From a virus, in the IMG/VR virus record IMGVR_UViG_3300021197_001883, positions 1 through 28,248 of that record: DNA of 28,248 nt. The stretch is one strand, 5' to 3'. How positions within the stretch are numbered: the stretch's first letter is position 1; each line of letters begins with the position of its first letter. The notes beneath the pieces were generated by a model. It was not told where the DNA came from, searched no databases, and worked only from the letters and a program-made list of their open reading frames with translations. Of the stretch, positions 3,052 to 23,291 are shown piece by piece. A program made the translations under genes and the position numbers.

Positions 3052-3284
3052 TGATAGACTTTAAGCATGAAGACGTAGAACGTTTATGGAATTCCATTGT
3101 GCATTACGTACCAGAAAGACAAAAACTAGACATGGCTATTGACTTCATTGCTACCCTCGAAGATATTGGTGTGGAGCACGATGTCTTAAAGGGATCTGCA
3201 GAGCTTGATCCAAAACTAGAGGAAGCCGTCAACACTGTGTTCGAGGAAGACGAAGAGTCAGACGGATACGGCGAAGATGATTAA
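3051..3284 (+). CDS. Small acidic protein between uvsX and uvsY
   Basis: This 77-residue protein is strongly acidic, ending in a run of Glu and Asp (about residues 66-77). Its helical body starts with a basic/aromatic stretch. It is coupled at both ends: its ATG overlaps the uvsX stop (TAATG) and its stop overlaps the uvsY start by 8 bases. The coupling suggests equimolar production with the recombinase and its loader. I know of no function; an acidic DNA-mimic or UvsX-binding role is speculation. Confidence 0.7.
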   Translation: MIDFKHEDVERLWNSIVHYVPERQKLDMAIDFIATLEDIGVEHDVLKGSAELDPKLEEAVNTVFEEDEESDGYGEDD

Positions 3285-3738
3285 TTGGTACAACGAAGTC
3301 AGCAGGAACCTAGACAAGATACCAGACTGCGTGGCATACTTTGACAAGGAATTGATCGAGGCTAAAAAGCAGTGCAAGATATACGGTAACCTAGAGAGGG
3401 CCAGTGCATCATTGCCTGGAATAGTGGAAGAAAGATTTAGCCAACTGCAACAACTGGAAGCGATCCTGGAATACCTAAACATAGAATTACGTAGATTAAG
3501 ATCAAAAACCTTCAGGAAATATTTAGAAAATTACAACAGAGCACTATCAAGCAGAGATGCAGAGAAGTACGTGGACGGCGAAGATGATGTCGTGGACATG
3601 GACAAAATTATAAATGACTTCGCACTGATAAGGAATCAATGGTTGGGCATCACCAAAGGCTTAGATCAGAAACAATGGCAGATAACCAATATCGTCAAAC
3701 TGAGGGTCGCGGGAATGGAAGATGCCGACATCAAATAG
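3277..3738 (+). CDS. uvsY: Recombination mediator UvsY-like protein
   Basis: UvsY loads UvsX onto ssDNA covered by gp32. This 153-residue protein is close to T4 UvsY in size (137) and shows the family's helical character. A central segment at about residues 79-98 with an FRKYLENYNRALSSRD core, followed by an acidic loop and a second helical part with NQWLGITKGL, matches my memory of UvsY homologues in marine phages. It sits just downstream of uvsX, as expected. The start ATG at 3277 lies inside the end of the preceding gene, and its own end overlaps the HAD gene by 17 bases. Confidence 0.8.
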   Translation: MINWYNEVSRNLDKIPDCVAYFDKELIEAKKQCKIYGNLERASASLPGIVEERFSQLQQLEAILEYLNIELRRLRSKTFRKYLENYNRALSSRDAEKYVDGEDDVVDMDKIINDFALIRNQWLGITKGLDQKQWQITNIVKLRVAGMEDADIK

Positions 3739-4348
3739 GATAATACTCACAGACGTAGACGGTGTGCTGTTGGAGTGGGAACACCACTTCACTAAATGGA
3801 TGTTGCAACGAACACTGTTTGACGAGAGAGGTGCGAGATATCACCCACACAAACTACTACCAGACAAACAGAACACATACGAAATGGCAGAACGTTTTGG
3901 TGTGACCAAAGACGAGATCAGGAAGCACATCAGGGAGTTCAACAGGAGTGCTTGGATGGGAACACAGAGACCGATACTGGAGTCACAGACTTGGGTAAAA
4001 CTGTTGGCGGCCGAGGGGTGGACGTTTATACCGATCACGTCCCAGACATCTGACATACCAGCACAACAGTTGCGTAAGAGAAGACTGGGAGAACTGTTTG
4101 GGGATCATGTCTTCACAAATTACCATATTCTAGGCACAGGTGCTGACAAAGACAGTGCTTTGGCGGAGTTCCATGCTACCGGACTGTATTGGGTAGAGGA
4201 CAAGCCAAAGAACGCTGTAGCCGGGCTCAAATACGGTTTAAAGCCCATATTAATAGACCACCCATACAATCAAGATTTCAATCATCCTGACATTATACGT
4301 GTAAGTAATTGGAAAGACATACACCAAATAGTTTCAGGAAGAAAATGA
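3722..4348 (+). CDS. HAD-superfamily phosphatase
   Basis: This 208-residue protein has the haloacid dehalogenase fold motifs. Motif I is DVDGV with the nucleophile D11 and acid/base D13; motif II is the ITS at 105-107; K143 fits the motif III lysine; and an ED pair at 159-160 fits the Mg-binding motif IV. A helical cap insertion lies between motifs I and II (about residues 20-95). Such phage HAD proteins are often nucleotidases or sugar-phosphate phosphatases. The substrate cannot be read from sequence. It overlaps uvsY by 17 bases and the next glycosyltransferase by 4 (ATGA), so it may serve nucleotide metabolism or the glycan island it adjoins. Confidence 0.8.
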   Translation: MPTSNRIILTDVDGVLLEWEHHFTKWMLQRTLFDERGARYHPHKLLPDKQNTYEMAERFGVTKDEIRKHIREFNRSAWMGTQRPILESQTWVKLLAAEGWTFIPITSQTSDIPAQQLRKRRLGELFGDHVFTNYHILGTGADKDSALAEFHATGLYWVEDKPKNAVAGLKYGLKPILIDHPYNQDFNHPDIIRVSNWKDIHQIVSGRK

Positions 4349-5019
4349 AAATTTACGTAGGGCACGACAGCAGAGAAGACATAGCATACCAGGTTTGCGA
4401 ACATTCGATCAAGCGTAGAGACCCGTCAGCAGAAATAATTCCCCTCAAACAAAAACAGATGCGAGACCAAGGACTGTATACCCGGCATGTGGACAAATTG
4501 GCGTCAACTGAGTTCACATTCACTAGGTTCTTCGTGCCATACATGAACGACTTCAAGGGATGGGCGGTGTTCTGTGACTGTGATTTCCTTTGGAAGATAC
4601 CAAGCCATGAGCTTGTGAAATACTGTGACGACTCAAAAGCAGTTGTTGTAGTACAACATGACTACACCCCAAAAGAAACAACAAAGATGGACGGACAGGT
4701 GCAAACTTCATATCCCAGGAAGAACTGGTCAAGCATGGTATTATGGAATTGTGAACATCCTAAGAACAAAATACTAACACCTGAATTACTCAACGAAGAA
4801 TCACCAAAGTTCCTACACAGGTTCAGTTGGCTAGATGATAGCGAAATAGGATCATTACCTTTAGAATATAACTGGCTAGTAGGCTGGTACAAAGAACCAA
4901 AAGATGGTGTACCTAAAATACTACACTACACAGAAGGTGGTCCATGGTTTGATGGTTACCGAGACTGTGAGTACAGCGATGACTGGAAGAAAGAACTAAT
5001 AAACTTATTCAGTTCGTGA
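4345..5019 (+). CDS. GT8-like glycosyltransferase
   Basis: This is a 224-residue GT-A fold transferase. The N-terminus (MKIYVGHDSRED) matches the first strand and nucleotide-binding loop of glycogenin-like GT8 proteins. The FTRFFVPYM stretch (59-67) and the metal-binding DCD at 78-80 follow in order, and a late HYTEGGPW segment supplies the C-terminal His-Gly pair typical of the family. I chose the ATG at 4345 because it forms an ATGA overlap with the HAD gene; an earlier in-frame ATG at 4309 would bury 36 more bases in that gene. It would add a sugar from a nucleotide-sugar donor to an unknown acceptor. It is the first gene of the glycan island and converges on the next gene with a 15-base overlap. 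Confidence 0.75.
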   Translation: MKIYVGHDSREDIAYQVCEHSIKRRDPSAEIIPLKQKQMRDQGLYTRHVDKLASTEFTFTRFFVPYMNDFKGWAVFCDCDFLWKIPSHELVKYCDDSKAVVVVQHDYTPKETTKMDGQVQTSYPRKNWSSMVLWNCEHPKNKILTPELLNEESPKFLHRFSWLDDSEIGSLPLEYNWLVGWYKEPKDGVPKILHYTEGGPWFDGYRDCEYSDDWKKELINLFSS

Positions 5020-5718
5020 TTCTATAAAAGATTTCAAAGCACTGACATCTGCATTTAATGTCCTGTCTCTCACTTTTGTCCATACAAATTGATCTCTTTC
5101 AGAAATATTAAAGTTCTTACGTATTTGTTTACCTGCATTATCGTCTAATATTTTTTTAGCCTTGAATTCTATCGTTGGCAGATAAAGACATCTGTTTAAT
5201 TTACGTGCCACTTTTTGTGTGTATGAGTCAACATGCCAATGCCAAAAATATACAGGTGCAAGATATCCTAATGTGTTAATCCAGTTTTTATGCACGGCAA
5301 AGTGAGCGGCTGGTAATTTCGTGTCACCCCATAATGTAGGAGCATCTGCTAGATCCTTATTCTTTGCCCTACCATCATATGGTACCGCCATCAATATTTT
5401 GTCATCGTAACGATCGAATTCATCAGCAATCATTTTATCCCAATTTTGTGTTCTTACTTGCACGTCATCGCCCATAAGCATCACAATATCGTATGATGCC
5501 TTCTCAGCCATTAAGTTCCAACTATAACAAGTAGATTGATTTGGTCCAATGGTATAATGTTTTTCGTCGAGTAAATCTTTATACTGTTCTAACTTTTCAT
5601 CGTCGTCGTTTAGATAAAATAGAAACTCTGTATCACCTTTTTGCGTTTCTGTTGCACTGTCAACCAATCGTTTTGCTAGTTCGGGCCTACCTCTTGATGG
5701 ACAACAAAAAGAAATCAT
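5005..5718 (-). CDS. GT2-like glycosyltransferase (GT-A fold)
   Basis: This is a 237-residue protein with the GT-A layout: an N-terminal MISFCCPSRGRP strand and loop, a YLNDDD acidic patch at 35-40, and VMLMGDDV at 79-86 in the place of the DxD metal site. A KHYTIGPNQS loop lies between them. The start at 5718 is preferred over a TTG at 5736 because it forms an ATGA overlap with the epimerase and has GGAAGAAG just upstream. It is the last gene of the leftward glycan operon. The donor and acceptor are unknown. Confidence 0.7.
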   Translation of the reverse strand: MISFCCPSRGRPELAKRLVDSATETQKGDTEFLFYLNDDDEKLEQYKDLLDEKHYTIGPNQSTCYSWNLMAEKASYDIVMLMGDDVQVRTQNWDKMIADEFDRYDDKILMAVPYDGRAKNKDLADAPTLWGDTKLPAAHFAVHKNWINTLGYLAPVYFWHWHVDSYTQKVARKLNRCLYLPTIEFKAKKILDDNAGKQIRKNFNISERDQFVWTKVRDRTLNADVSALKSFIESRTE

Positions 5719-6719
5719 ATCAATTTCTTCTTCCAAGTATCTGGGGTCTGGTCATTAATAATTTCCAATGGTAGGTGATATTGAAATTTCTTTGTGCCTC
5801 TAGTCCTAATGTACTCTGCTGTCTTTTTTACTGACTGTCGCATGTTTGTTGCTGTACTGTAACCTAATAATTCTCTTGCTTTGTCTGACGAACACACTGC
5901 TAGTTTGACTTCTTTAGGCCTGTCTTTGTGGTGTATAGGATCTAAATTAAGTCCTGTTTCGTTTGCACAGGCTTCTGCTAACTCATTGATTGTTATAGGT
6001 TCTTCGTCTGGGCCTATGTTGATTACTTCACCAACTACGTTGTCTTGGAACGCAAGTGCATTCAAACAATACAAACAATCATCTATGTAACTGAAACATC
6101 TTTGCTGTTTGCCATCTCCGTATATGATTGGTTGCTTACCTTGTAACATTCTGTTCAACATGATAGACATAACGTTTCTAAAAGGGTCATCATACTTCTG
6201 TCTTGGTCCAACAATGTTGTGTGGCACAGCGATCACATACTCAACTCCGTGTGTCTCACATAAATTTTTAAGCACATCTTCCCCAGCCTTCTTTGCGATA
6301 CCGTATGGATCCTGGGGACGACACTCGTGGGTTTCTTTGTACGGCATTTCGTCATGATGCCCGTACCTTGCCATACTTGAACAATACACAATACGTTTGA
6401 CTTTGTTCCTTATGGCCGCTGTAATAGTTGTTACCGATGCTTCAAATATATTTCTCGTAACAAGCACAGGAGAAAATACTGACAGTCCTTCGTATGCCGT
6501 TGCGGCAGTATGATAAACTATGTCACAGCCTTCCATGGCCTTGGTCATGTTTTCTAAATCGCAACAATCCACTTGATGGAACTCAACGTTCTGTGGGACA
6601 TTGTCTGTGTATCCACCGATCATGTTATCATTGCCAGCCACTGTGTGACCTTCTGATAGCATCAAATCTGCTAGATGAGAACCTAAGAATCCTGCTACGC
6701 CTGTGATAAAAATTTTCAT
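5715..6719 (-). CDS. NAD-dependent sugar epimerase/dehydratase (extended SDR)
   Basis: This 334-residue enzyme has the extended short-chain dehydrogenase fold acting on nucleotide sugars. The dinucleotide-binding glycine motif GVAGFLG is at residues 7-13, the active-site serine region YCSSM at 112-116, and the catalytic YGIAK with Y139 and K143. The substrate-binding half carries a conserved GDGKQQRCFSYIDD block at about 204-217, as in UDP-glucose 4-epimerase and related enzymes. Length is typical of the family. It probably makes or rearranges a UDP- or GDP-sugar used by the neighbouring transferases. No clear Shine-Dalgarno precedes the ATG, and its stop overlaps the next gene by 4 bases. 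Confidence 0.9.
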   Translation of the reverse strand: MKIFITGVAGFLGSHLADLMLSEGHTVAGNDNMIGGYTDNVPQNVEFHQVDCCDLENMTKAMEGCDIVYHTAATAYEGLSVFSPVLVTRNIFEASVTTITAAIRNKVKRIVYCSSMARYGHHDEMPYKETHECRPQDPYGIAKKAGEDVLKNLCETHGVEYVIAVPHNIVGPRQKYDDPFRNVMSIMLNRMLQGKQPIIYGDGKQQRCFSYIDDCLYCLNALAFQDNVVGEVINIGPDEEPITINELAEACANETGLNLDPIHHKDRPKEVKLAVCSSDKARELLGYSTATNMRQSVKKTAEYIRTRGTKKFQYHLPLEIINDQTPDTWKKKLI

Positions 6720-6738
6720 TTGGAGTATTTAATTTAAG

Positions 6739-7365
6739 TTATACACGGTAAAAAACTTTATCTGGCCAATGCTCCATTAACACTTTGAATCCTAGTGAAT
6801 CCATATACTTCTCTATGTCAATATTGCTACTTCCATATTTTTTAGTATTGTTGTTTAATTCTATCATTAGATACTGTACACTCTCTAAAGTCTTTGTTGC
6901 ACCTTTCAACACTTCCATTTCATATCCTTCAACATCTATCTTTATCAGGTCAACCTTTTCATAATTCAAATAATCTAGTGTGATCATCCTGATGTTTCCT
7001 TCTTTATTGACTCTTTTTGCCTGTGTAAAATCGTCCTCGGTCAATGATATTTCTTTTATTTCTGAACCAACGGCCTCCATTCTTGGATCGCAATTGATAG
7101 TACAGTTACGTTGTAAACATTCAAAATGTATCTTGTCTGGTTCGAAAGCAATCACTTTTTTTGCATATGGTTCAATGGCCTTTGTCCATGTTCCACACCA
7201 CGCACCTATGTCGATCACTGTGTTAAATTTTTTATTCTGACTATCGCAGTAATCTATGAACTTCATTAGACATTTATTTTGGGTGAATGGTTGGCCTGCC
7301 TTCCATTGTTCTAAGTGTATATCATTTGATGGCACCCATAAACCGTTTACCTTTTCTATATTCAT
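6739..7365 (-). CDS. FkbM-family methyltransferase
   Basis: This is a 208-residue SAM-dependent methyltransferase. Motif I reads VIDIGAWCGTWT (50-61), the acidic residue that binds the SAM ribose is in FEPD (74-77), and the FkbM-type block LIKIDVEGYEMEVLKGA follows in the second half. FkbM proteins O-methylate sugars or polyketides, and in glycan clusters usually methylate sugar hydroxyls. It overlaps the upstream gene as ATGA and lies two genes before the end of the leftward operon. Methylation of a terminal sugar is a likely role but remains inference. Confidence 0.85.
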   Translation of the reverse strand: MNIEKVNGLWVPSNDIHLEQWKAGQPFTQNKCLMKFIDYCDSQNKKFNTVIDIGAWCGTWTKAIEPYAKKVIAFEPDKIHFECLQRNCTINCDPRMEAVGSEIKEISLTEDDFTQAKRVNKEGNIRMITLDYLNYEKVDLIKIDVEGYEMEVLKGATKTLESVQYLMIELNNNTKKYGSSNIDIEKYMDSLGFKVLMEHWPDKVFYRV

Positions 7366-8174
7366 AGTATTCCCTTGTCCATCAGTATTTCTACTGCTGT
7401 GCCATTTTCAATCTCTTCTGGTGTGAACTGTTGATATGCCAGACTGTACAACCAAGGTTCTGGCCCGCCGTAGTAAGGATTCTCAATGTCTGCTAGTTCA
7501 ACGTTGCCAACATCGACTGCAAAACTCTTATCATCACAGAACACAGGTATTCCCTCACACATTGCCTCCACTGCCGCGATCGAACAACTGGTTACCACAC
7601 ACCAGGCCTCCTTGAGGTCCTCGGATAGGGGTACTTTCGCTTCACTTGGTCCTGATGTACCCCTCCCCCTAGGCTTGTGTCGAAGTCGGATAGGTCTGTC
7701 CGTGTATCTCTTTACCTGCTCTATGGTCTCGTTTGTCCAATTGGGTCGACCAAGGTAGTTGTGTATGCCTGTGCTACTAGGACATACTAAAACATACTTG
7801 CCAGCGAAATTTGGTGCTTTGATCTTCATTCCAAACTTTTCAAATCTATCGGCCTTGCAATTTTTAATGTAAGGAACGTGAATGGCATTCTTGCACACAC
7901 GCCAATAATGATTGTCAGGTTTCAGGTTATTGTTATCAAATCTTCCAAAGTAAGGTGTGTCTGTGAACCAGTAGTTGTGATTACGTGCTTCCGACTTCTT
8001 GACCATTTCTCTGTTGTTGCCAACGAACCCCCAGAACATGCTGTTGCTTACAGGATCTGTTTCGGTTGCGTTGTCTAATTTTGTTATCTGATCAGGCCAT
8101 GACTTCTCGACACCGTTGAACACTTCCCATGCTTTGCTATTTTTATTATTAAATGGTGCGTAGATTGTTAGCAT
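7362..8174 (-). CDS. GT-B-like glycosyltransferase, island paralogue 1
   Basis: This 270-residue protein is one of four related proteins in the island. It has TDRPIRLRHKP (158-168), TSCS (195-198), GIPVFC (208-213) and a tail LAYQQFTPEEIENGT (245-259), each matched in the same order in the genes at 10677, 11476 and 15096. The arrangement of a T-D/S-R-x-I-x-x-R-x-x-P block, then an S/N-S helix start and a G-I/V-P strand, resembles the C-terminal half of GT-B capsule enzymes of the KpsC/KpsS and glycerophosphotransferase type. The His of the RPHP block is displaced (RHKP). It is closest to the 10677 protein, sharing a YF-x-D and YF block followed by HYW and KN near residues 68-96. It overlaps the SGNH gene by 26 bases. 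Confidence 0.65.
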   Translation of the reverse strand: MLTIYAPFNNKNSKAWEVFNGVEKSWPDQITKLDNATETDPVSNSMFWGFVGNNREMVKKSEARNHNYWFTDTPYFGRFDNNNLKPDNHYWRVCKNAIHVPYIKNCKADRFEKFGMKIKAPNFAGKYVLVCPSSTGIHNYLGRPNWTNETIEQVKRYTDRPIRLRHKPRGRGTSGPSEAKVPLSEDLKEAWCVVTSCSIAAVEAMCEGIPVFCDDKSFAVDVGNVELADIENPYYGGPEPWLYSLAYQQFTPEEIENGTAVEILMDKGIL

Positions 8175-8811
8175 CTATAAATTCCATAAGTTGTTCAGCC
8201 CACTGCCTGTGACCTTCTGCCGATGGATGAGGATCACTTTTACTGCTTATCATTCCTTTGTCTAAAATAAATTCGTATTGACTGAGATTAGGGCTAAAAA
8301 ATCTATTCATGTTTATGGAGTCTTTGATAATTTGGAAATCAAACATGGCAGACCCAAAATCATTTGGCAGAGAATTGTACATCACATATGGTATTTTCTT
8401 CCTTTCAAAATAGTTTTGCAGATCAAAAACACTATCCAAGAATCTCATTGTCATGTTATTTTCAATATCCCAACCTGTGTTTTTCCTTACGAAATCAACA
8501 TTGTCTAGAGTTTTCCAGGTACGCCATGTAAGGTTAGTTCCAGGCATCCTGCCTTTTTTATGTCCGTCGTTGGTAACGTAGTCATTTCGGCTGGCACTGG
8601 ACCAACCTATGACAGCGAAGTGCTTATCACGTTTGTGACGTTCCAACCACACCTTGGTGGTGAAACTAATCCTGTCATTTCCTCTGCCGCCCATAGCAAA
8701 GTTGACCAAAGGCATGTCATATTTTTCTGCAAGTATTTTCGTGGTAAATGTGTCAACACCGTCTTTGGGACGACTTGTAAGAAAACTGCAACCATTTGAA
8801 AATAAAAACAT
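8149..8811 (-). CDS. SGNH/GDSL-like hydrolase
   Basis: This 220-residue protein has the ordered SGNH signature. NGCSF (6-10) carries the candidate nucleophile S9, GGRGND (41-46) supplies the Gly/Asn block, and DPHPSAEGH (193-201) supplies the C-terminal Asp/His pair. The family hydrolyses esters or transfers acyl groups, and in glycan loci often adds or removes acetyl groups on sugars. Phage members with an NGCS block are usually uncharacterised. It is the first gene of the leftward operon, reading from a divergent promoter region 9-38 bases upstream. The acyl substrate is unknown. Confidence 0.7.
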   Translation of the reverse strand: MFLFSNGCSFLTSRPKDGVDTFTTKILAEKYDMPLVNFAMGGRGNDRISFTTKVWLERHKRDKHFAVIGWSSASRNDYVTNDGHKKGRMPGTNLTWRTWKTLDNVDFVRKNTGWDIENNMTMRFLDSVFDLQNYFERKKIPYVMYNSLPNDFGSAMFDFQIIKDSINMNRFFSPNLSQYEFILDKGMISSKSDPHPSAEGHRQWAEQLMEFIDANNLRTI

Positions 8812-8824
8812 AGTAGTGTATTAT
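8796..8824 (+). promoter_or_regulatory. Candidate sigma70-type promoter, rightward half of the glycan island
   Basis: TTGAAA (8796-8801) and TATTAT (8819-8824) each match five of six consensus bases with a 17-base spacer. The predicted start near 8831 leaves a leader of about 12 bases before the ATG at 8843. Its -10 box overlaps that of the leftward promoter. Confidence 0.55.
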
Positions 8825-8849
8825 AACATAATTATTAATTAAATGTTAG
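8820..8849 (-). promoter_or_regulatory. Candidate sigma70-type promoter, leftward half of the glycan island
   Basis: Read on the minus strand, a perfect TATAAT lies at 8825-8820 and CTAACA (four of six) at 8849-8844 with an 18-base spacer. Transcription would start about at the ATG at 8811 or a few bases before it. The overlap with the rightward -10 means polymerase could not occupy both at once. Confidence 0.45.
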
Positions 8850-9931
8850 CAAAAAACATAAACTCGCTGAAGTATTTCCTGAATCGTTGGGAAACAGTAG
8901 ACCCCGAGTACGACTACACAGTACCGTACCATCCAGCGATTGATCCGCACTTCACAAGTTTACCAACATTTGTAGCGGAGTTTCATAATTGTAGAGTGCA
9001 TACGTGCCCATTGTTGTTGACTAGGGAAAATAAGTTAATCACAGAACACGTGTGGAAACTGACGCACAAGAGCAGACACAAGCCACACAAGAGCCACAAG
9101 CTCTGGACCGAATGGGATGACAACGTAGATTTAGATCTACCACCTGCTACTCAATTTTTCCATGAGAAAGACACCTACGTATGGCTACCTGTGGACGATG
9201 ACAGCAAAAGTAATCCATGGCACATCTGGATTGATGTCATATCTAAGTTCAGGTTGTTAGAGAAAAGATGGTCAACGAACTTCAGTAGGTACTGTTTTAT
9301 ATTGGCAAATCACAGTCCGTATTTTGAAAAGGTATGCAAAGAACTTTTCCCAAACGTCAAGATAGTCGTAATGAAAAAAGGTGAGACATGGCAATTCAAA
9401 CATCTCATAGTGCCCAGCATGAGTAATGTGAGAGATGGTATAACAACGCCGGCTCTTGCCCCGTGGTTACGACATTTCAAAGGATTGGCTAATATCAAAG
9501 GAATCAAACCCCATCGGAAAATAGTCGTACTGAGACCAGGTGCTGTCACTAGAAGAATACAAAACTCTGACGAATTGCTATTGAACCTCAAAGGATGGGA
9601 GACTGTGGTATTGGAGAAAATGTCCATCCGAGAACAAATAAAAACATTCGCCGAGGCTTCACACGTGGTGGCGGCACATGGTGCAGGCCTCACTAATTTG
9701 TTATGGTGCCAGCCCGGAACCAAAGTATTAGAGATAAATCAAAAAAGCGAAATACACAAAAAGGTTTACCCATTGCTGTCACACAATCTAAATCTAGAAC
9801 ATAAATTATATCTAGCAGATGTGGTGCCAATCCCTAAAGAAAATGGGAAAAAACCCAAAGGCATTAAAAGATTCAGTGACATGATAAAATTTAAAATTAA
9901 CATACCCGAAATCATGGAGCACTTAGAATGA
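8843..9931 (+). CDS. GT61-like glycosyltransferase (DUF563)
   Basis: This 362-residue protein carries the hallmark C-terminal block of family 61 transferases at about residues 273-296: an A-A-H-G-A-G-L-T-N-L segment, then a P-G-T-K-V-L-E-I strand. That block forms the nucleotide-sugar pocket of this GT-B group. An upstream VVLRPGAVTRRI segment matches the strand with a conserved Arg, and FHEKDTYVWLPV in the N-terminal half matches the early domain. Family members add xylose, GlcNAc or other sugars. The ATG follows a candidate promoter and opens the rightward operon. Its stop overlaps the next gene as ATGA. Confidence 0.85.
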   Translation: MLAKNINSLKYFLNRWETVDPEYDYTVPYHPAIDPHFTSLPTFVAEFHNCRVHTCPLLLTRENKLITEHVWKLTHKSRHKPHKSHKLWTEWDDNVDLDLPPATQFFHEKDTYVWLPVDDDSKSNPWHIWIDVISKFRLLEKRWSTNFSRYCFILANHSPYFEKVCKELFPNVKIVVMKKGETWQFKHLIVPSMSNVRDGITTPALAPWLRHFKGLANIKGIKPHRKIVVLRPGAVTRRIQNSDELLLNLKGWETVVLEKMSIREQIKTFAEASHVVAAHGAGLTNLLWCQPGTKVLEINQKSEIHKKVYPLLSHNLNLEHKLYLADVVPIPKENGKKPKGIKRFSDMIKFKINIPEIMEHLE

Positions 9932-10677
9932 ACCTATCAGTGTTACAAAAGAAACCTGAACTTGTACTAGAGCCTTATCCACATTTCGTGATCGAGGACG
10001 CACTACCCCAAGATGTGTACGAACAACTTGAGAAGGAATGGCCGGAACAACAACTGCTGTCCACCGAGCCATTTGATTCGGGTATATGTTACAGGTTGAA
10101 AGCAGATGAGATGTTGAAGCCGGGAAAAGTATCCAATCTATGGAAAAAATTTACCGAGTATCACACTTCTATTGAGTTTTATAAGGAAATGACAAAAGTG
10201 TTTGGCGAGTTGGTCCCACATGTCGACGACCTTACGTTGAGTCCAAGAGGCTGGGACACAGGCAATGACAAGATAGGAACCGACTGTCAGACAGTGATGC
10301 ACAAGCCCATCGACTTCAGTTCAAGGACTGCACACATAGACAACCCTAGGGAGATATACGCGGCCTTACTTTACATGCCTTACATGGATGATAAGAGCAC
10401 CGGTGGTGACTTTCAAATACACGAAACACATGATAACATTTTGGAAGTGAATAAAAACGGCGGAAGAGAAGTAAATGAAAAAGCAGGAAAAGTTGTCAAG
10501 ACAGTTCCTTATAAACCCAACACATTAGTTGTATTTTGCAACAATTCAACAAGGTGTGTACACAGTGTATCCTCTAGAAAAGATGCCGTGCTACACAGAA
10601 GGAGCGTTAATATAATTGCTGAATTTAACAGAGCCGCGAAATGTAAAATGTTTGAAGTAAAGGAAAACAGGAAGTAA
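9928..10677 (+). CDS. 2-oxoglutarate/Fe(II)-dependent oxygenase-like protein
   Basis: This 249-residue protein has the double-stranded beta-helix metal triad: H136 and D138 in AHIDNP, and the distal H212 in RCVHSVSS, with an R-R pair at 224-225 placed to bind 2-oxoglutarate. The GGDFQIHE strand (159-166) and the PNTLVVF strand (197-203) are typical of prolyl-hydroxylase-like 2OG enzymes. The N-terminal PYPHFVIEDALP motif is common in phage and cyanobacterial members found with glycosyltransferases. It likely hydroxylates a sugar, lipid or protein acceptor in this pathway; the substrate is unknown. Its stop overlaps the next gene as TAATG. Confidence 0.8.
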   Translation: MNLSVLQKKPELVLEPYPHFVIEDALPQDVYEQLEKEWPEQQLLSTEPFDSGICYRLKADEMLKPGKVSNLWKKFTEYHTSIEFYKEMTKVFGELVPHVDDLTLSPRGWDTGNDKIGTDCQTVMHKPIDFSSRTAHIDNPREIYAALLYMPYMDDKSTGGDFQIHETHDNILEVNKNGGREVNEKAGKVVKTVPYKPNTLVVFCNNSTRCVHSVSSRKDAVLHRRSVNIIAEFNRAAKCKMFEVKENRK

Positions 10678-11486
10678 TGCTGTCAGGTATACACACAACC
10701 AAACCACGTACACAACGGTATGTAGATGCCTTTGTTAATGGTTCGGGCAAGGGAAGGATTTATCAGTTTCGTGACCTGAAAGGGTTACCAAAAGAAAATC
10801 TGACCATGTACGGCATACTGGCAGGATCTGGTGAAGTGTATAAATGGTGTGAGAAGGATAAAAGAGATTTTTATTTCATGGATCACGGATATTTTACAAA
10901 TGCACATGACAGTCCACACTGGTTACGTATAACCAAGAACAAACACTGTCAGAATATATTACAACAGAGACCCACAGACAGGTATGAGAAACATTTCAAA
11001 AGAGATATTAAACCATGGAACAAGGGTAAGAAAATTCTTGTCCTGCCACCCACCAATGCAATAGCGAACTTCTTTGATGCCACCGACTGGTTGGACAACA
11101 CAGTGAAGATCCTTAAACAGAACACTGACAGAGAAATAGACGTAAGGGAAAAACCATACAATCCAACAATTGAAATTGATCATGTTGGTGCAACGGTAAA
11201 AGTGGACAGGCCAACTGTACACAAGGGCAATATCAATTGGGGCGATTACCATGCAACAGTGACCTACAACTCCAACACCATGGTGGCCAGTTTGACTAAC
11301 GGAGTACCTGTGTTCTGTGATCCAGAGAACAGTGCGGCCGCACCCATATCTGAAACAGATTTCACAAAAATAGAAACACCTAAATACGGAGACAGGATTG
11401 CATTATTTTCAAGTCTAGCGTATAATAATTGGACACTACAAGAAATGGCCAACGGAACAGCGTGGAGGATGTTAAATGAAAGTTGA
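10677..11486 (+). CDS. GT-B-like glycosyltransferase, island paralogue 2
   Basis: This 269-residue protein belongs to the same family as the genes at 7362, 11476 and 15096. It has TDREIDVREKP (150-160), YNS (197-199), GVPVFC (209-214) and LAYNNWTLQEMANGT (247-261). Its N-terminal FYFMDHGYF and HWLRITKN (about 65-88) pair with those of the 7362 protein, so these two form the closest pair. The R-E-K-P form lacks the His seen in the 11476 and 15096 members (R-P-H-P). No membrane segment or signal peptide is visible, so it is probably a cytoplasmic transferase. It overlaps the following paralogue by 11 bases, suggesting local duplication and divergence. Confidence 0.65.
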   Translation: MLSGIHTTKPRTQRYVDAFVNGSGKGRIYQFRDLKGLPKENLTMYGILAGSGEVYKWCEKDKRDFYFMDHGYFTNAHDSPHWLRITKNKHCQNILQQRPTDRYEKHFKRDIKPWNKGKKILVLPPTNAIANFFDATDWLDNTVKILKQNTDREIDVREKPYNPTIEIDHVGATVKVDRPTVHKGNINWGDYHATVTYNSNTMVASLTNGVPVFCDPENSAAAPISETDFTKIETPKYGDRIALFSSLAYNNWTLQEMANGTAWRMLNES

Positions 11487-12459
11487 GATATTTAGAAGGA
11501 CAGTGAAGGATCGTAAACGTGGCAACAGTTACGAGTTGCTTTACCATCTCAAGGAAGGCATAGAGGCCGCGGGCGATGAAGCGGTCATAGTCAATGAGAA
11601 CAGGTCCGGACCAACTGTAGAAGGCGAGATGACTCCTACTGCACCCATGGCGGCCATGTTTGGATATGGTGGCGACAAGCAGATGCATCACACCAAAGGC
11701 AGACGTAGGGAACTTGCCAATAATTGTAGAGAAAAGAAAATTCCATTGATAACATTTGACGGAGGACTTTTATCTAGTTTTGGTAATGTGTCAACATCAC
11801 CTGATCATCATTTCAGGGTGTCTTTGTACACACCCATGAACGACGGTAACTTTCTATCTGACAACAGTCCAAGCGATCGTTGGGAAATGATGGTGAAAAA
11901 ATTCAAAGTTAAGTATGAACCATGGAGGAAGTCTGATCAAGACGATCCTGTAATATTCGTACTGCAACCAAAAGACAACTGGAGCATGAACGAGTTGGAT
12001 CCCATAGAATGGTTTAACAAAGTTTATGAAAGGCTTAGACCTGCCACTGATAGGAAGTTCATAGTCCGTCCGCATCCAAACCATGTCGCATCCATTGTCG
12101 CACGAAAGGATGACTTTCCAGATGATGTTGAACTTCAGTACACACATCAACATTTTGCGGGAGATGAAAAGAAGTTTTACAGATTCCATTTCCAGGAAGC
12201 GATCGCGAATGCACACGCTGTGGTTACGCACAACTCCACTGCCAGTGTTGACAGTTGCATAAGGGGAATACCAACTTTTTGCACATCAGATCTTGCACTG
12301 TGTTGGGAAGTGTGTAACAAGGATCTTAACGATATAGAAACACCCAAGAGGCCAGACAGGACACAGTGGGCATACGACCTAGGATATAAACTGTGGAGCA
12401 TACAAGAGATAAGAGACGGCACAGTTTACAAAAGGTTCAAATCAAAACTGGGTCTGTAA
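11476..12459 (+). CDS. GT-B-like glycosyltransferase, island paralogue 3
   Basis: This 327-residue protein is the longest of the four island paralogues. The extra length is mainly in the N-terminal domain, which has a Lys/Arg-rich start and a glycine loop GYGGDKQMHH (63-72). The C-terminal half has TDRKFIVRPHP (191-201) with the complete R-P-H-P block, THNS (251-254), GIPTFC (264-269) and LGYKLWSIQEIRDGT (302-316). The R-P-H-P plus H-x-S-x-x-x-x-x-x-x-x-G-I-P combination is typical of capsule and teichoic-acid-type GT-B enzymes, which supports a transferase role. Its stop overlaps the asparagine-synthetase-like start as TAATG. Confidence 0.65.
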   Translation: MKVEIFRRTVKDRKRGNSYELLYHLKEGIEAAGDEAVIVNENRSGPTVEGEMTPTAPMAAMFGYGGDKQMHHTKGRRRELANNCREKKIPLITFDGGLLSSFGNVSTSPDHHFRVSLYTPMNDGNFLSDNSPSDRWEMMVKKFKVKYEPWRKSDQDDPVIFVLQPKDNWSMNELDPIEWFNKVYERLRPATDRKFIVRPHPNHVASIVARKDDFPDDVELQYTHQHFAGDEKKFYRFHFQEAIANAHAVVTHNSTASVDSCIRGIPTFCTSDLALCWEVCNKDLNDIETPKRPDRTQWAYDLGYKLWSIQEIRDGTVYKRFKSKLGL

Positions 12460-14171
12460 TGTGCGGCATATACGGTATCACGGACAAAGATCCCGAATTT
12501 ATAAAACAATATATCGAAATATGTAAACACAGAGGGCCCGACGGATCAGACATATGGACATCTGACCATGTTACCCTTGGTCATAATCTACTGAGCATAA
12601 TGGCCGAGCCAAACAAATCTCAACAGCCATGGGAGACCCCAAAAGGCAATAGGCTTGTGTACAATGGAGAAATTTTTAATTACAACGAACTTGTTAAAAA
12701 ATACAAAAATTTTACAAATTCTACAGGGTGCGACACAGAACTGTTAGCATGGGGACTGGACGAACACGGAATAAATTTTATCAATGAGATCGATTCCATG
12801 CATGGCTTTGCCTATTACGACCTGCAAAGAAACACAATTACCCTGAGCAGGGATCATGCGGGCATTAAACCATTATACTACGCAGAAATAGACAAAGGCC
12901 TTGTGTTTGCATCAGAACTGAAAGGCATGCTCGACATTGTTCCCAACGCCCGAACACTTGATAACCTTGCCTGTAGTATGATGACCCGGACCGGCACAAA
13001 TCCGTTGAGAAACACCATGTTCACAAATATCAAAAAAGTTTTGCCAGGCGAAACCATTGTGTATGATTTAAAAATGAGAACTTTGAACTGTGCCCAAAGA
13101 ATATACATTAAACCGAATGCTGATAAAGATTACTCAAAAAATGAACTCAAAGAAATGTTTGCTCAGACAGTAAGGCAGTGTGCCATAGGGCAAAGGAAAA
13201 TTGGAGTGTTCTTGAGTGGTGGTTTAGATTCTTCTGTTGTGGCCTATGAACTACAACAACTAACAAACAGTGTAAACACTTTCACAAACAGAATTACCCC
13301 GGAAGTACGGGCAGATGAAGATTTCAACAGCGATTCAAAAGTAGCAAAAAGGTTTGCATCCGAACAAAATTTTAATCATCATGATGTTGTTATATCACCG
13401 TCCGAATATCTATCAGCGTGGGAAGATAGTGTATGGTACATGGAACAGCCAAACTACAATCCAAGCAATCCAATGTACTGCTACACGAACAAGTATCTAG
13501 CAGATAATGACATAGTAGTTACGTTGGCAGGAGACATGGGTGACGAACTGTTTGGTGGATACCCAAAATACAAAAACTTATATAATAGTGTAAACAAACC
13601 AAACTCCTGGAGAGAACTTTTACAACTATGGCTAGAAAGGGTTAAAAAAGGCAGTTATGTGTTGACAGAGCAACCAATCAATGACGAGACAATCCTAGAC
13701 GAACTTGAAAAATGTTACAGTGACGAACTGTGGAATCCGGCAGACCCAACTGCATCATACATGGCATTGGACTGTGTTGCACAGGTCCCAGAGTTATTTT
13801 TCGCACGAAACGATTACTATGGCATGGCTTACGGAATGGAGGGTAGATTCCCTTTGGCATCAAAAAAATTCATGCAGTATTGCTTGAACATCAAAACAAA
13901 ACACAAGTTTAAAAACAGCACCAAAGATATGGTAAAGAAAGCATACGAAAAATTTTTACCTGGATACATCGTCAACAAAGAAAAAACAGGATGGACAGTA
14001 CCGATCGGGTATTGGTTGATGGATAATGTTAGTGACCACTTGACCAGTGTCTACGACCAAGAGATAGGCAAGGAAAGGCTTCACTTACAAGGAAGGTCAC
14101 AGAAAGCAGGCAAACGTTTGATGCCGGAGTGGCAAGTAAAAAACTGGAAGGAAAAATATCAAATTAAATAA
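12459..14171 (+). CDS. asnB: Glutamine-dependent asparagine synthetase-like amidotransferase
   Basis: This is a 570-residue class II amidotransferase. The start at 12459 is chosen because it leaves MCGIYG, whose Cys becomes the N-terminal catalytic residue; the longer frame from 12393 would bury it. The glutaminase domain shows HRGPDG (24-29), NGEIFN (69-74) and the GCDTE and ASELK blocks. The synthetase domain has the ATP pyrophosphatase loop SGGLDSS (253-259) and, later, GDMGDELFGGYPKY. Length matches bacterial AsnB. True AsnB makes asparagine; homologues inside O-antigen and capsule loci instead amidate uronic acids or related carboxyl sugars. Its place between glycosyltransferase genes favours that second role, but sequence cannot decide. 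Confidence 0.92.
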   Translation: MCGIYGITDKDPEFIKQYIEICKHRGPDGSDIWTSDHVTLGHNLLSIMAEPNKSQQPWETPKGNRLVYNGEIFNYNELVKKYKNFTNSTGCDTELLAWGLDEHGINFINEIDSMHGFAYYDLQRNTITLSRDHAGIKPLYYAEIDKGLVFASELKGMLDIVPNARTLDNLACSMMTRTGTNPLRNTMFTNIKKVLPGETIVYDLKMRTLNCAQRIYIKPNADKDYSKNELKEMFAQTVRQCAIGQRKIGVFLSGGLDSSVVAYELQQLTNSVNTFTNRITPEVRADEDFNSDSKVAKRFASEQNFNHHDVVISPSEYLSAWEDSVWYMEQPNYNPSNPMYCYTNKYLADNDIVVTLAGDMGDELFGGYPKYKNLYNSVNKPNSWRELLQLWLERVKKGSYVLTEQPINDETILDELEKCYSDELWNPADPTASYMALDCVAQVPELFFARNDYYGMAYGMEGRFPLASKKFMQYCLNIKTKHKFKNSTKDMVKKAYEKFLPGYIVNKEKTGWTVPIGYWLMDNVSDHLTSVYDQEIGKERLHLQGRSQKAGKRLMPEWQVKNWKEKYQIK

Positions 14172-14175
14172 AGTT

Positions 14176-15096
14176 ATGCCCACACTAGCAGTAGTAACAA
14201 CTTTCCCGCCAAACAGATGGACAGCATATGCTAAAAGGATGTTGGAGAGCCATATTCAATTTTGGCCCGACAATGTTACCCTGTATGCATATTACGAAGG
14301 CCAGAAACCAACACTAGAACATCCAAAGATCAAATTTATCAACATAGAAGATGCCAATCCTGAATTAATAAAATTCAAGCAGAGACACAAGGACGATCCT
14401 GTGGCCAACGGTGAAGTGGATGAAATACCGGGCGGTGTGCGGAGAGATCCCAACGCAGGGAAAAATGACAGGGGCAAAGGATCTTACCTATGGGACGCTG
14501 TGAGATTCGCACACAAGACCTTTACAGTGGATCACGCAATTAAAACAATTGACACAGATTATGTTTTATGGTTAGATGCCGACACATACACATTCAGACC
14601 AATCACAATAGAGTTTGTTACTGGGCTACTACCCGAAGATAAGCTCGTGAACTTCTTAGGGAGGGGTGAAAAATATCCAGAATGTGGGTGGGTGTGCTAC
14701 AACAAGAAGCATCCAAAAATTACAGAATTCATGCAGTACTGGACAGACCTTTACATCAAGGACACCATATTCAAAGAGTTGGAATGGCATGACAGTTACC
14801 TGTTCTGGCAATGTGTCAAACGTGTGGCACCCAACGACGGGGTGGACATAGGCAAAGGTGCAGGTGCCAAAGGACATCATGTGTTCATCAACAGCGTGTT
14901 AGGAGCATACGTGGATCATATGAAAGGCAAAAGGAAAGTGCAAGGTAAAAGTAGCAAGAGTGACCTACGTGGAGACAGGAACGAGGACTACTGGAAGAAC
15001 GTGGAGAACTACGATCCGTTCAGTGGTGTGAAGTTTGATCCCAAGCAGGCAGACGACATAGTGAGCAAGGTTGCCAAAGGAAAGCAGGGCAACTGA
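14176..15096 (+). CDS. DxD glycosyltransferase (GT-A fold)
   Basis: This 306-residue protein starts with a Rossmann-like strand (TLAVVTTFPP) and carries a clear metal-binding DxD motif in VLWLDADTY (130-138). A later EWHDSYLFW block (about 204-212) fits the acceptor or catalytic loop of GT-A enzymes. An unusual Gly/Asp/Arg-rich loop (about 78-103) precedes the DxD. The C-terminal 40 residues are basic and charged. It begins 4 bases after the asnB-like stop and overlaps the next gene as TGATG. The sugar donor is not recognisable. Confidence 0.7.
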   Translation: MPTLAVVTTFPPNRWTAYAKRMLESHIQFWPDNVTLYAYYEGQKPTLEHPKIKFINIEDANPELIKFKQRHKDDPVANGEVDEIPGGVRRDPNAGKNDRGKGSYLWDAVRFAHKTFTVDHAIKTIDTDYVLWLDADTYTFRPITIEFVTGLLPEDKLVNFLGRGEKYPECGWVCYNKKHPKITEFMQYWTDLYIKDTIFKELEWHDSYLFWQCVKRVAPNDGVDIGKGAGAKGHHVFINSVLGAYVDHMKGKRKVQGKSSKSDLRGDRNEDYWKNVENYDPFSGVKFDPKQADDIVSKVAKGKQGN

Positions 15097-15965
15097 TGAG
15101 GATAGAAGCATGGCCCATGCATGGCCCATTGAACAGCAAAGACATCTTCGCAAAATTCATAAAGTCCATGCAGGACTTGGGAGACGAAGTACATGTCGAC
15201 AAGGAAACCAACGGTGACGTAGCAGTGATCTGGAGTGTGCTGTGGCGAGGCAGGATGCGAAACTACAAACAGATTTGGCAAAGATACAGACAAGCAAATA
15301 AGCCAGTGATAGTGCTAGAAGTGGGCGGAATAAGAAGGAACAAAAGTTTTAAGATTGCAATCAACGGTGTGAACAGGAAAGCAGATTTTGCCAATCAAGA
15401 TGTGGACAATACCAGATGGCCATTGTTCAATCATGTATTCAAGCCATGGAAACAGACAGGAGACAACATACTCATCTTGGGACAACACGATGCTTCTGAA
15501 CAATGGAACGGTATGCCTGGTATGAACATTTGGTTTGAACAACAAATAAATGAAATTAGAAAACACACTAGCAGACCTATACAAGTTCGACCCCACCCTA
15601 GGAATCCTATAAGTTTTAATTTTAAAAAATATAAAAATGTAAGCATAACAAGTCCTGTAATGGACAGTAACACCATAGATGACACAAACTTCAAAGACAC
15701 ACTAGAGGACGCTTGGGCTGTGATAAATCATAGTTCTAATCCTGCGATAGAGGCTGTGATCAACGGTATACCTGTGTTTGTATCTGAGGATAGCCTGTGC
15801 CATGACGTTGGCAATCATTCTCTAGCCAACATCAATGATCCTAAAATGCCCGATAGACAAGAGTGGGCAAACAAGTTGTCATACACCGAATGGTTTGAAG
15901 ATGAGATAGAAAAAGGATTACCATGGCAGAGAATCAAAAATAGAATTATTACAAATTATCTATGA
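15096..15965 (+). CDS. GT-B-like glycosyltransferase, island paralogue 4
   Basis: This 289-residue member of the island family has TSRPIQVRPHP (158-168), NHSS (211-214), GIPVFV (224-229) and LSYTEWFEDEIEKG (261-274). It lacks the Cys after the GIP strand that the other three share. The first 125 residues differ from the other members and look like a separate acceptor-binding N-domain with an IVLEVGGIRR strand and loop. The start region carries an exact 11-base tandem repeat (15108-15129). It is translationally coupled on both sides (TGATG upstream, ATGA downstream). Confidence 0.65.
   Translation: MRIEAWPMHGPLNSKDIFAKFIKSMQDLGDEVHVDKETNGDVAVIWSVLWRGRMRNYKQIWQRYRQANKPVIVLEVGGIRRNKSFKIAINGVNRKADFANQDVDNTRWPLFNHVFKPWKQTGDNILILGQHDASEQWNGMPGMNIWFEQQINEIRKHTSRPIQVRPHPRNPISFNFKKYKNVSITSPVMDSNTIDDTNFKDTLEDAWAVINHSSNPAIEAVINGIPVFVSEDSLCHDVGNHSLANINDPKMPDRQEWANKLSYTEWFEDEIEKGLPWQRIKNRIITNYL
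15108..15129 (+). repeat. Exact 11-base tandem repeat near the start of a glycosyltransferase gene
   Basis: GCATGGCCCAT occurs twice in direct succession (15108-15118 and 15119-15129), 12 bases after the first base of the start codon at 15096. Because 11 is not a multiple of three, losing or gaining one unit would shift the reading frame. Confidence 0.8.
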
Positions 15966-16687
15966 GTACAATCTCAGAAATCAAATGGAAGCCATACGAT
16001 GGAGAGATTGTAAACACAAACCTCATCATACGTAAAGGTAAAAAGATACAAGAGACTGCTTTCTTCGAGGATCGGGTAAAAGCAGTTCCACAGGGCAATG
16101 CCTACTGCATAGGGAATGGGCCTTCACGTAAAGGGTTTGATCTACGCAAACTTAAAGCCACAGGACAGACTTACGGATGTAATGCATTGTACAGGGATTT
16201 CATACCCGACTTCATATTTTCCGTAGACACCAACATGTCAATGAAAATGGTAGAGGACGAGGTTGGGTTGAAGGCCGTACACTACGCTCCGGCCTTACAG
16301 GCAAATAGGAAAGAGAGCAAAGGGATGATACACCTCATACCTAACAATCCAAACTGGATATCGGGCAATGTCGCATTCTGGACTGCAGGGGTGCATGGGC
16401 ACCGGAACATCTATCTCATAGGATATGACTTCAGGGAGTACGGCAAGGGAGAGCTAAACAACATTTACCAAAACACCGACAATTATGGCGAACGTAATGA
16501 TGATAATATATTTGATGGATGGTTGAAACAGTTTCGCGATATGTTGAAGATGAGACCTTATGTGAACTACACTGTAGTGCATGATAATCCACCGGAATAT
16601 TTGAACTATCTGCAGACAGGTACAGATTTGGGTAACAGTAAAGTTATAAGTTACACTGAGTTTGAAAAAGTTTTAACACCTAGATAG
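15962..16687 (+). CDS. DUF115-like Rossmann protein, possible sugar transferase
   Basis: This 241-residue protein has the YCIGNGPSRKGFDLRKLK block (GNGPS at 51-55) followed by GCNALYRDFIPDFIFSVD, the signature of the DUF115/MAF-type Rossmann domain. A central VAFWTAGVHGH helix and an IYLIGYDF strand complete the fold. Relatives include motility accessory factors that transfer nonulosonic acids to flagellin, and pterin pyrophosphokinases. In this island a glycosyl-transfer role is more plausible. It closes the rightward operon, and its stop overlaps the convergent SprT-like gene by 15 bases. Confidence 0.7.
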   Translation: MSTISEIKWKPYDGEIVNTNLIIRKGKKIQETAFFEDRVKAVPQGNAYCIGNGPSRKGFDLRKLKATGQTYGCNALYRDFIPDFIFSVDTNMSMKMVEDEVGLKAVHYAPALQANRKESKGMIHLIPNNPNWISGNVAFWTAGVHGHRNIYLIGYDFREYGKGELNNIYQNTDNYGERNDDNIFDGWLKQFRDMLKMRPYVNYTVVHDNPPEYLNYLQTGTDLGNSKVISYTEFEKVLTPR

Positions 16688-17149
16688 GCCGAGGCCGGCA
16701 ATTCTAAATTTGTTTTTCCAGGCAAAAAAGTTTTTATTATGGTTTGCATATGGGTCTTGTATCCAAGTCATTTGATAAAGGTGAACCATTTCATGTGCCA
16801 ATGTTTCAATAAAGTCTTTCCATTTTGGAAATTTACAATGTAATTCAATATAAAATTCTACATCAACATGATACGGGATCACACGTTGGTCACACTTGCC
16901 TTTGGGTGTTTTTCTGTTGTCCCAATTTGCAACACACCTACCCCAATCCTTGTGCAATTTTCTTATATGCAAAGGCACCATTGGTAATCTACTATTAAAC
17001 AATGCACGATTGATGTATCTAAACCACTGAAATGCTTGTTGCTCTGTTGGCCTGAATCCATTTTTATTCTTATATCTAGTCGCAGTATTTTCCAACTTAA
17101 CTTTAAGTTGTTTTTTAACATTTACCGCTTTGTTCTTTACTTTTTTCAT
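16673..17149 (-). CDS. SprT-like zinc metalloprotease
   Basis: This 158-residue protein carries the zincin motif HEMVH (119-123, zinc ligands H119 and H123, catalytic E120) and a third candidate ligand H137 in the following NHNKNF segment, with a WGRC element at 69-72 as in SprT-like domains. SPRTN-type proteases cut DNA-protein crosslinks. Many bacterial SprT proteins are uncharacterised. The first 20 residues are very Lys-rich, suggesting nucleic-acid contact. I take the ATG at 17149; an upstream TTG at 17167 would add six residues and overlap the -35 of the rightward promoter. It is a lone leftward gene between the glycan island and the replication genes. Confidence 0.8.
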   Translation of the reverse strand: MKKVKNKAVNVKKQLKVKLENTATRYKNKNGFRPTEQQAFQWFRYINRALFNSRLPMVPLHIRKLHKDWGRCVANWDNRKTPKGKCDQRVIPYHVDVEFYIELHCKFPKWKDFIETLAHEMVHLYQMTWIQDPYANHNKNFFAWKNKFRIAGLGLSRC

Positions 17150-17151
17150 GG

Positions 17152-17179
17152 TTGACAGTTTTACCAATTATGTTATACT
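17152..17179 (+). promoter_or_regulatory. Extended -10 sigma70-type promoter for the uvsW group
   Basis: A perfect TTGACA (17152-17157) is followed after 16 bases by TATACT (17174-17179), and a TGT triplet immediately before it (17171-17173) gives an extended -10. Transcription would start near 17186, about 16 bases before the ATG at 17202. I infer an early promoter for the cluster running to 22908. Confidence 0.75.
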
Positions 17180-21827: not shown

Positions 21828-22053
21828 GATCGATTTAGAAGTTTCTGACAACTTACAATTTGATGACGGCGACTGTGCAGTGATAATCAAAGAGGATGGA
21901 TCAATAGGAAGAGTGGTCATGCCAGATGTGAATAGGAAAATGATAGCGTCGGAAGGATATAAGAAATTGTTAGATGTTCTAGAAGTATTGCAACCAGGTG
22001 CACGTGATAAAATGATAAACCATGCCCAAAAAGGCAGAGGGAGTATGCACTAA
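21820..22053 (+). CDS. Small protein of unknown function with TTG start
   Basis: This 77-residue protein begins at a TTG codon. That start is supported by the strong ribosome site, an 8-base overlap with the upstream gene, and a TAATG junction with the DnaE-like gene. The first in-frame ATG (at 21919) would remove the first 33 residues. It has a short beta-like N-terminus (CAVIIKEDGSIGRVVM) and a helical C-terminus (YKKLLDVLEVLQ). No family is recognised. Coupling to the DnaE-like gene suggests the two may act together. Confidence 0.6.
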   Translation: MSKIDLEVSDNLQFDDGDCAVIIKEDGSIGRVVMPDVNRKMIASEGYKKLLDVLEVLQPGARDKMINHAQKGRGSMH

Positions 22054-23283: not shown

Positions 23284-23291
23284 TATAAATA
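23284..23291 (+). promoter_or_regulatory. T4-type late promoter
   Basis: TATAAATA is the exact late-promoter box of T4-like phages, recognised by the gp55 sigma-like protein with gp33 and the clamp. It is the only perfect copy I find on either strand and sits 17 bases before the ATG at 23308 of a structural-type gene. The resulting leader would be only about 10 bases long. Confidence 0.8.

Follow-up and report, generated by a model that had tools for sequence, protein, structure and literature searches.

Why would a phage keep a long run of sugar-handling genes inside its recombination and replication core, and on what would their product act? The question is raised by the complete IMG/VR record IMGVR_UViG_3300021197_001883, a fragment of 28,248 bases from a larger phage, which was analysed here and is called the window below. 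Fourteen adjacent open reading frames (ORFs; g7 to g20, positions 4345–16687) lie in it between the genes for UvsX, UvsY and a HAD protein on one side and those for SprT and UvsW on the other. An initial annotation, made from the letters of the window, had described this block as a glycan-biosynthesis island, and the observation was confirmed, with a corrected start for g17 and a weak assignment for g20. We propose, at a probability of about one half, that the island is an exchangeable cassette, made early, that remodels a capsule- or lipopolysaccharide (LPS)-type glycan on the host surface.

Scans of viral contigs with the g22 and HAD proteins yielded 160 loci, and the island was present wherever the sequence sufficed to judge: g18, g19 and g20 stand upstream of g22 in 53 of 53 cases and g7 follows the HAD gene in 64 of 64. 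Complete islands were found in 16 contigs and in the window; these 17 span 8.9–17.3 kb, and on their evidence chimeric assembly was rejected as an origin of the block. Each contains the scaffold genes g7, g11, g13, g16, g18, g20 and the adjoining g21, and nearly all have g12, g15 and g19; the variable part consists of g8-g9, g10, g14, g17 and extra genes for GDP-mannose dehydratase, sulfotransferases and more FkbM proteins. Across the 17, the flanks are conserved and the content varies. More distant phages in viral contigs and in the bins of metagenome-assembled genomes (MAGs) carry rearranged versions of the island beside UvsY. At the UvsY–UvsW site the island is absent from Sinorhizobium phage Phosso, Agrobacterium phage Atu_ph07 and SCTP-2, and the region was therefore rejected as a set of ordinary core genes; in Phosso the homologues of UvsY and UvsW are separated by just a few genes, and in Atu_ph07 by a run of mostly small unrelated ORFs. 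Invariant gene content and order in all relatives had been named initially as evidence against a swapping cassette. Within the lineage this holds for the scaffold genes, which are core and stand in constant order; the central and accessory genes, by contrast, swap, and the nearest isolates lack the island at this site.

The variation at the centre falls into two forms. Compared with the window, g15 shows a bimodal split, with an identity of either 77–99% (haplotype A) or 39–46% (haplotype B), and the central block g13–g18 occurs as A in 29 and as B in 28 loci, a ratio near 1:1. Linkage of g13, g15 and g18 is perfect in 54 of 54 loci, and g14 was found in 25 of 27 typed A loci and 0 of 27 typed B loci; the GDP-mannose dehydratase gene is present in some B islands. 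On a flank tree of g22 and g23 (48 loci) the haplotype changes at least 11 times by well-supported branches and 14 times by parsimony. Shuffled labels gave 15.7 changes, and 101 of 500 shuffles needed as few as observed, so the haplotype is uncoupled from the backbone. With a variable centre between conserved flanks, and content independent of the flank tree, the locus behaves as the swapping cassette at a fixed site that the initial annotation had envisaged. Synonymous divergence (dS) shows the exchange directly, including a recent transfer in the window itself: relative to locus L023, the window has a dS of 0.12–0.27 in g15–g20 and 0.7–1.3 in the flanking genes. Loci L029 and L060 share g15-g16-g18 only by the same comparison, and L026 and L033 have similar flanks (dS 0.02–0.36) around a divergent g11–g18. 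The central block would be swapped by homologous recombination within the scaffold genes and the conserved flanks, and A and B could thereby coexist at about 1:1; the exchange may track rival phages or host surface types. A tentative but quite conceivable extension is that g13–g18 acts, in a lytic phage, as a 'serotype' locus with two balanced idiomorphs. Frequency-dependent selection would hold their two chemically different glycans near 1:1, homologous recombination would spread them, and each glycan would suit its own host surface type or set of rival phages. Coinfecting jumbo phages would then swap surface serotypes in the way that bacteria exchange O-antigen clusters.

Wherever a gene offered enough pairs, its median dN/dS is 0.02–0.06 (g17 gave a single usable pair), and the island is under strong purifying selection. 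It has been suggested for cyanophage LPS clusters that they might be functionless passengers or headful 'stuffer' DNA (PMC3037559). For the present island, with such low ratios, intact catalytic motifs and universal retention, this idea is scarcely credible.

Expression signals separate the island from a virion gene. The gap between the divergent genes g12 and g13 (8796–8849) holds a sigma70-like promoter region with TATAAT in 53 of 55 relatives and a sigma70 score of at least 10/12 in 58% (plus strand) and 80% (minus strand), compared with 5–7% in shuffles; these relatives are not independent trials, and the gap ranges from 31 to 62 bases between loci. The T4-type late motif TATAAATA occurs in this gap in 0 of 55, against 35 of 36 at the nearby virion gene. 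A sigma70 promoter of g22 and UvsW (17152–17179, plus strand; TTGACA-16-TATACT, with TG) scores at least 10/12 in 52 of 52 relatives. A sigma70 scan of the whole region gave 40 hits against 39.1 in shuffles, which is no enrichment, and only conserved intergenic positions across relatives are informative for this promoter class. The T4 late promoter (PMC1524935) is found in perfect form at 23284–23291 (plus strand), between g28 on the minus strand and the virion structural gene g29 on the plus strand. The motif precedes g29 in 41 of 43 relatives and stands at the same place before the Atu_ph07 homologue, though g29 is only about 23% identical there; elsewhere in the lineage it is rare, with the caveat that it does occur at some accessory insertions (X5, and an FkbM gene placed between HAD and g7). 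Because the g12/g13 promoter is sigma70-like and free of the late motif, as opposed to the late promoter at the virion gene, we suggest that the island is expressed early or in the middle period.

This promoter contrast bears on the main rival explanation, namely that the enzymes act in the cytoplasm to glycosylate virion proteins of the phage itself (capsid, tail or fibres), as happens in mycobacteriophages, and that the haplotypes change the virion surface. Glycosylation of virions by phage glycosyltransferases is established, according to the portion of PMC12619734 that cites Freeman et al. 2023; all island enzymes look soluble, the island is universal in the lineage, and an 88-kb relative (G001) has FkbM and SGNH-like genes right after its major capsid gene, with a weak g20-like gene nearby. 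On the other side stand the TATAAT-bearing promoter region, which never has the late motif that precedes the structural gene, and a nearest cellular gene group that is capsule-like and not of a protein-glycosylation type. We regard decoration of the virion as a serious candidate, if a rather doubtful one.

The enzymes themselves are consistent with assembly of a decorated oligosaccharide. The first, g7 (4345–5019, plus strand), is a GT8/GT24-like GT-A glycosyltransferase present in all islands (PHROG 28018, 1e-57; no Pfam match), whose DxD motif, CDCD, is kept in 45 of 45 sequences and whose homologues in S-SCSM2R, Mosig and DLP_6 are annotated as glycosyltransferases. Three accessory genes follow on the minus strand: a GT2-like glycosyltransferase (g8, 5005–5736; PF00535, 4e-4; PHROG 14945, a glycosyltransferase family, 9e-30), an SDR resembling NDP-sugar 4-epimerases (g9, 5715–6719; PF01370, NAD-dependent epimerase, 2e-48; best PDB match UDP-glucose 4-epimerase, 3e-41) and an FkbM-type O-methyltransferase (g10, 6739–7365; PF05050, 9e-17) that is often swapped for other FkbM alleles among relatives. 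The scaffold gene g11 (7362–8174, minus strand) encodes a GT-B paralogue, and g12 (8149–8811, minus strand), near-universal and with two allele classes, an SGNH-like hydrolase or transferase (DUF6071, 4e-8). On the plus strand, the exchanged block begins with a GT61 glycosyltransferase (g13, 8843–9931; PF04577, 6e-24; PDB match POMGNT2, 3e-5), followed by a 2OG-Fe(II) oxygenase of the prolyl-hydroxylase type (g14, 9928–10677; PF13640, 1e-4, slightly below the Pfam cut-off), the haplotype-defining GT-B paralogue g15 (10677–11486) and a further paralogue with RPHP and HNS motifs, g16 (11476–12459). The accessory g17 (12459–14171) is an AsnB-type glutamine amidotransferase with both domains (GATase_7, 5e-25; Asn_synthase, PF00733, 6e-52; PDB match 1ct9, 5e-40). 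Its true start is the ATG at 12459, giving MCGIYG with the catalytic N-terminal Cys2 nucleophile, and not the GTG at 12393; CGI is kept in 31 of 31. The block ends with g18 (14176–15096), a GT-A glycosyltransferase with a DxD motif, and is followed by the scaffold genes g19 (15096–15965), a GT-B paralogue with RPHP, and g20 (15962–16687), a protein with a GNGPS motif. A search of NCBIfam gave no useful names.

This inventory makes it highly unlikely that the island hypermodifies phage DNA with sugars against restriction. Virus-encoded DNA glycosyltransferases are known, according to the part of PMC12619734 that cites Pyle et al. 2024, and both the early-type promoter and the oxygenase g14 would suit such a role. 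However, no enzyme that creates a base handle (a hydroxymethylase, or a methylase with a TET-like oxygenase) was found within the island, g14 is missing from 27 of 27 B haplotypes, and the AsnB, FkbM, SGNH, GT61 and KpsC-fold proteins are oligosaccharide-pathway enzymes.

The four GT-B paralogues expected from the initial annotation (g11, g15, g16 and g19) do form one family at blastp E<1e-10. PDB sequence searches with the g16 and g18 families gave nothing meaningful, and predicted folds were therefore used. The AlphaFold model of g16 (pLDDT 86) has a GT-B fold with the Kdo transferases KpsC, KrkA and WbbB as top PDB matches (E 4e-7 and TM about 0.5 against retaining beta-Kdo transferases); the AlphaFold (AF2) model of g18 (pLDDT 73) matches GT-A enzymes of GT6/GT8 type. 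The RPHP sequence, an HP motif common to beta-Kdo transferases and CMP-sialic-acid transferases (PMC10148158), occurs in 47 of 47 g16 and 45 of 47 g19 proteins and is absent from g11 and usually from g15. The QxxxD nucleophile was not seen, by sequence, at the matching strand of any paralogue (g16 QPKDN, g19 QHDAS, g15 PPTNA, g11 PSSTG). For this reason g16 was rejected as a KpsC-type Kdo transferase (GT99/GT107/GT140), and neither it nor g19 is filed as a beta-Kdo transferase; since both keep the HP motif, they are plausibly GT-B enzymes of a CMP-ulosonic-acid type, with no family membership claimed. The DUF115-like label given initially to g20 stands only weakly: the MptE-like match (0.013) is under the cut-off and is equalled by GT42 sialyltransferases (0.013), with PHROG 4603 at 0.002, and g20 shares GNGPS and CN..Y motifs with the sialyltransferase CstII in that weak match.

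A bacterial gene group resembles this set. A genome scan with g18 found homologues in Rhizobium, Pseudovibrio and a marine member of the Rhodospirillaceae at 34–39% identity, and in five loci (L173, L174, L175, L181 and L187) a g7 homologue (40–42%) lies directly upstream. Downstream in both loci examined (L173, L187) is a 900-aa fusion of Capsule_synth (KpsC/S) and GT29 domains, followed next in Pseudovibrio by an FkbM-like gene. The KpsC-like segment of the Rhizobium protein aligns weakly with g16 (E 0.002, probability 13%), and g20 gave no match to that protein. The group differs from the island in being bacterial, in fusing the GT-B and sialyltransferase-like domains in one protein and in having no homologue of the GT61 or AsnB proteins close by. 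Its likeness to the phage's own gene set suggests that the product is capsule-like and the ancestry alphaproteobacterial, and the group is a bacterial glycan gene set worth describing. The hosts of Phosso and Atu_ph07 are alphaproteobacteria. A contig with a 95% identical g18 (L168) was binned in a Candidatus Pelagibacter MAG and others in Verrucomicrobia, Rickettsiales and Pacearchaeota MAGs; such phage contigs are probably misbinned and so give no reliable host hint. AsnB-type amidotransferases, 2OG oxygenases and methyltransferases are found in secondary-metabolite clusters as well, and a small secreted or intracellular glycosylated metabolite, the role proposed for a cyanophage cluster (PMC7824862), might be the product in place of a surface polymer. 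With at least eight transferases, four of them GT-B paralogues, and a capsule-like cellular group, a polysaccharide is the better fit and a metabolite is improbable.

Among the three targets proposed initially, the host surface thus fits best, virion decoration remains a contender and DNA modification is disfavoured. Remodelling of the host surface would start from host nucleotide sugars, partly converted by the phage (by the 4-epimerase and, in some B islands, the GDP-mannose dehydratase). Eight to nine transferases would assemble the glycan in the cytoplasm, where methylation, amidation, acyl transfer or removal and hydroxylation could decorate it, and the altered surface may block rival phages. 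In favour of this we count the sigma70-like promoter, the capsule-like bacterial group, the matches to Kdo-transferase folds and the kinds of genes shared with phage Mosig. Hydropathy revealed no clear transmembrane helix in the proteins of the 17 islands (a few values barely over the threshold were read as N-terminal extensions or buried strands of soluble folds), and hence no flippase, polymerase or exporter appears to be encoded. Carrier, flippase and export would have to be supplied by the host, because the island encodes none of them. Several points weigh against a host-surface role. The island has no transporter, polymerase, ligase or lipid-linked initiating enzyme, and access to an envelope pathway is assumed; its retention by every member would be expected of a core function no less than of occasional superinfection exclusion; virion-acting enzymes could likewise be made early; and G001 carries a g8-g9-g10 module elsewhere behind TATAAATA, in addition to the FkbM and SGNH genes after its capsid gene.

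Large clusters are known from other phages, and the initial view that its size sets the island apart is not supported. Cyanophage P-SSM2 has 24 LPS genes, S-SSM7 and S-SM2 have clusters (PMC2984593, PMC3037559), and 76% of one marine jumbo group (PGC_C) encode LPS proteins (PMC9123017). These occur in marine lytic phages and, like the island, combine many glycosyltransferases with sugar-modifying enzymes; their proposed role is to change the surface of the host and so keep other phages out (PMC2984593, PMC3037559, PMC9123017). Unlike them, the island belongs to a sister lineage of Phosso and Atu_ph07, lies at the UvsY–UvsW site and not near hli03/phoH, occurs in every member, and has defined A and B haplotypes and KpsC-fold GT paralogues. 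The capsular-polysaccharide modification clusters of jumbo phages (PMC7824862, section 3.4.10) also contain several glycosyltransferase families, sugar-modifying enzymes, methyltransferases and 2OG oxygenases, and their polymorphism between related viruses has been noted; in the present case it takes the measured form of linked haplotypes that are exchanged between flanks, and the promoter class is compared with that of a late gene. In Pelagibacter (SAR11) phage Mosig EXVC030M, homologues of g7, g11/g15, g18 and FkbM methyltransferases lie next to one another, together with a sulfotransferase, but at 22–47% identity, in a T4-like Kyanoviridae genome of 141 kb and at another genomic site; HTVC008M has single relatives of island genes. 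The published record thus already covers LPS clusters of T4-like and marine jumbo phages, their polymorphism and the proposal of superinfection exclusion. What is new is the lineage with its site, the exchange measured between two haplotypes, the contrast of an early-type promoter with a late one, and the paralogues with a KpsC fold. The lineage amounts to a natural experiment on what selects for surface sugars encoded by phages: the site is single, the backbones are close, the two linked haplotypes are about equally frequent, and the promoter class sets the island apart from a virion gene. To our knowledge, superinfection exclusion has been offered as the explanation of marine-phage glycan clusters without being tested directly. 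Phosso and Atu_ph07, isolates in the group, are growable and lack the island at this site.

The carrier had been called a T4-like phage, which is correct only at the level of the T4 superfamily (gp32, UvsX, UvsY, UvsW and one late promoter in the window); its nearest isolates, however, are jumbo phages of 440–490 kb. The best UvsW matches are Phosso (54%; 469 kb), the PA5oct group and Atu_ph07 (52%; 490 kb), and the gene order of the window is collinear with Phosso and Atu_ph07. The major capsid protein of G001 shares 72% identity with that of Phosso, and homologues of the Phosso tail sheath, tail tube and terminase stand there in matching order. The window phage is a member of an uncultured marine jumbo lineage with Phosso and Atu_ph07 as nearest isolates; it is no ordinary T4-like myovirus, and the UvsW matches and the G001 capsid do not place it closest to Straboviridae or Kyanoviridae. 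Two other places in G001 carry glycan-related genes. A second cluster on the DnaB side (L205, 3812–18718) has the g8-g9-g10 homologues behind the late motif together with radical SAM proteins, a TctA-type transporter gene, a sulfotransferase, PhyH and a TylF methyltransferase; the FkbM and SGNH-like genes at L207 (12945–15406) directly follow the capsid gene on the same strand, an arrangement for which a virion-linked glycan function is possible.

The backbone reads gp32, a hypothetical gene, UvsX, a small gene, UvsY, HAD, the island, SprT on the minus strand, g22 and UvsW, and further on primase and DnaB. Its conserved left flank comprises a UvsY-like recombination mediator (3277–3738, plus strand; PHROG 231, E=1e-16; 49% identical to Phosso) and the HAD/NT5C-like protein at the island boundary (3722–4348, plus strand; Pfam NT5C, 8e-5). 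The right boundary is the SprT-like g21 (16673–17167, minus strand; PF10263, 4e-7), whose two allele classes (56–67% and 74–89% to the window) do not track haplotypes A and B. Beyond it lie the conserved hypothetical g22 (17202–18560, plus strand; 128 relatives in viral contigs) and the UvsW helicase (18563–20029, plus strand; PHROG 16, 2e-76). No integrase was seen within the 28-kb fragment, and a search of the 28,248-base record for a mannose isomerase gave no match. Between primase and DnaB, the radical SAM/SPASM gene g31 (25131–26033) is accessory and missing from many relatives. A 196-aa piece at 22053–22643 resembles DnaE/Pol III alpha, is annotated as DNA polymerase in Phosso and Atu_ph07, and is possibly part of a split replicative polymerase.

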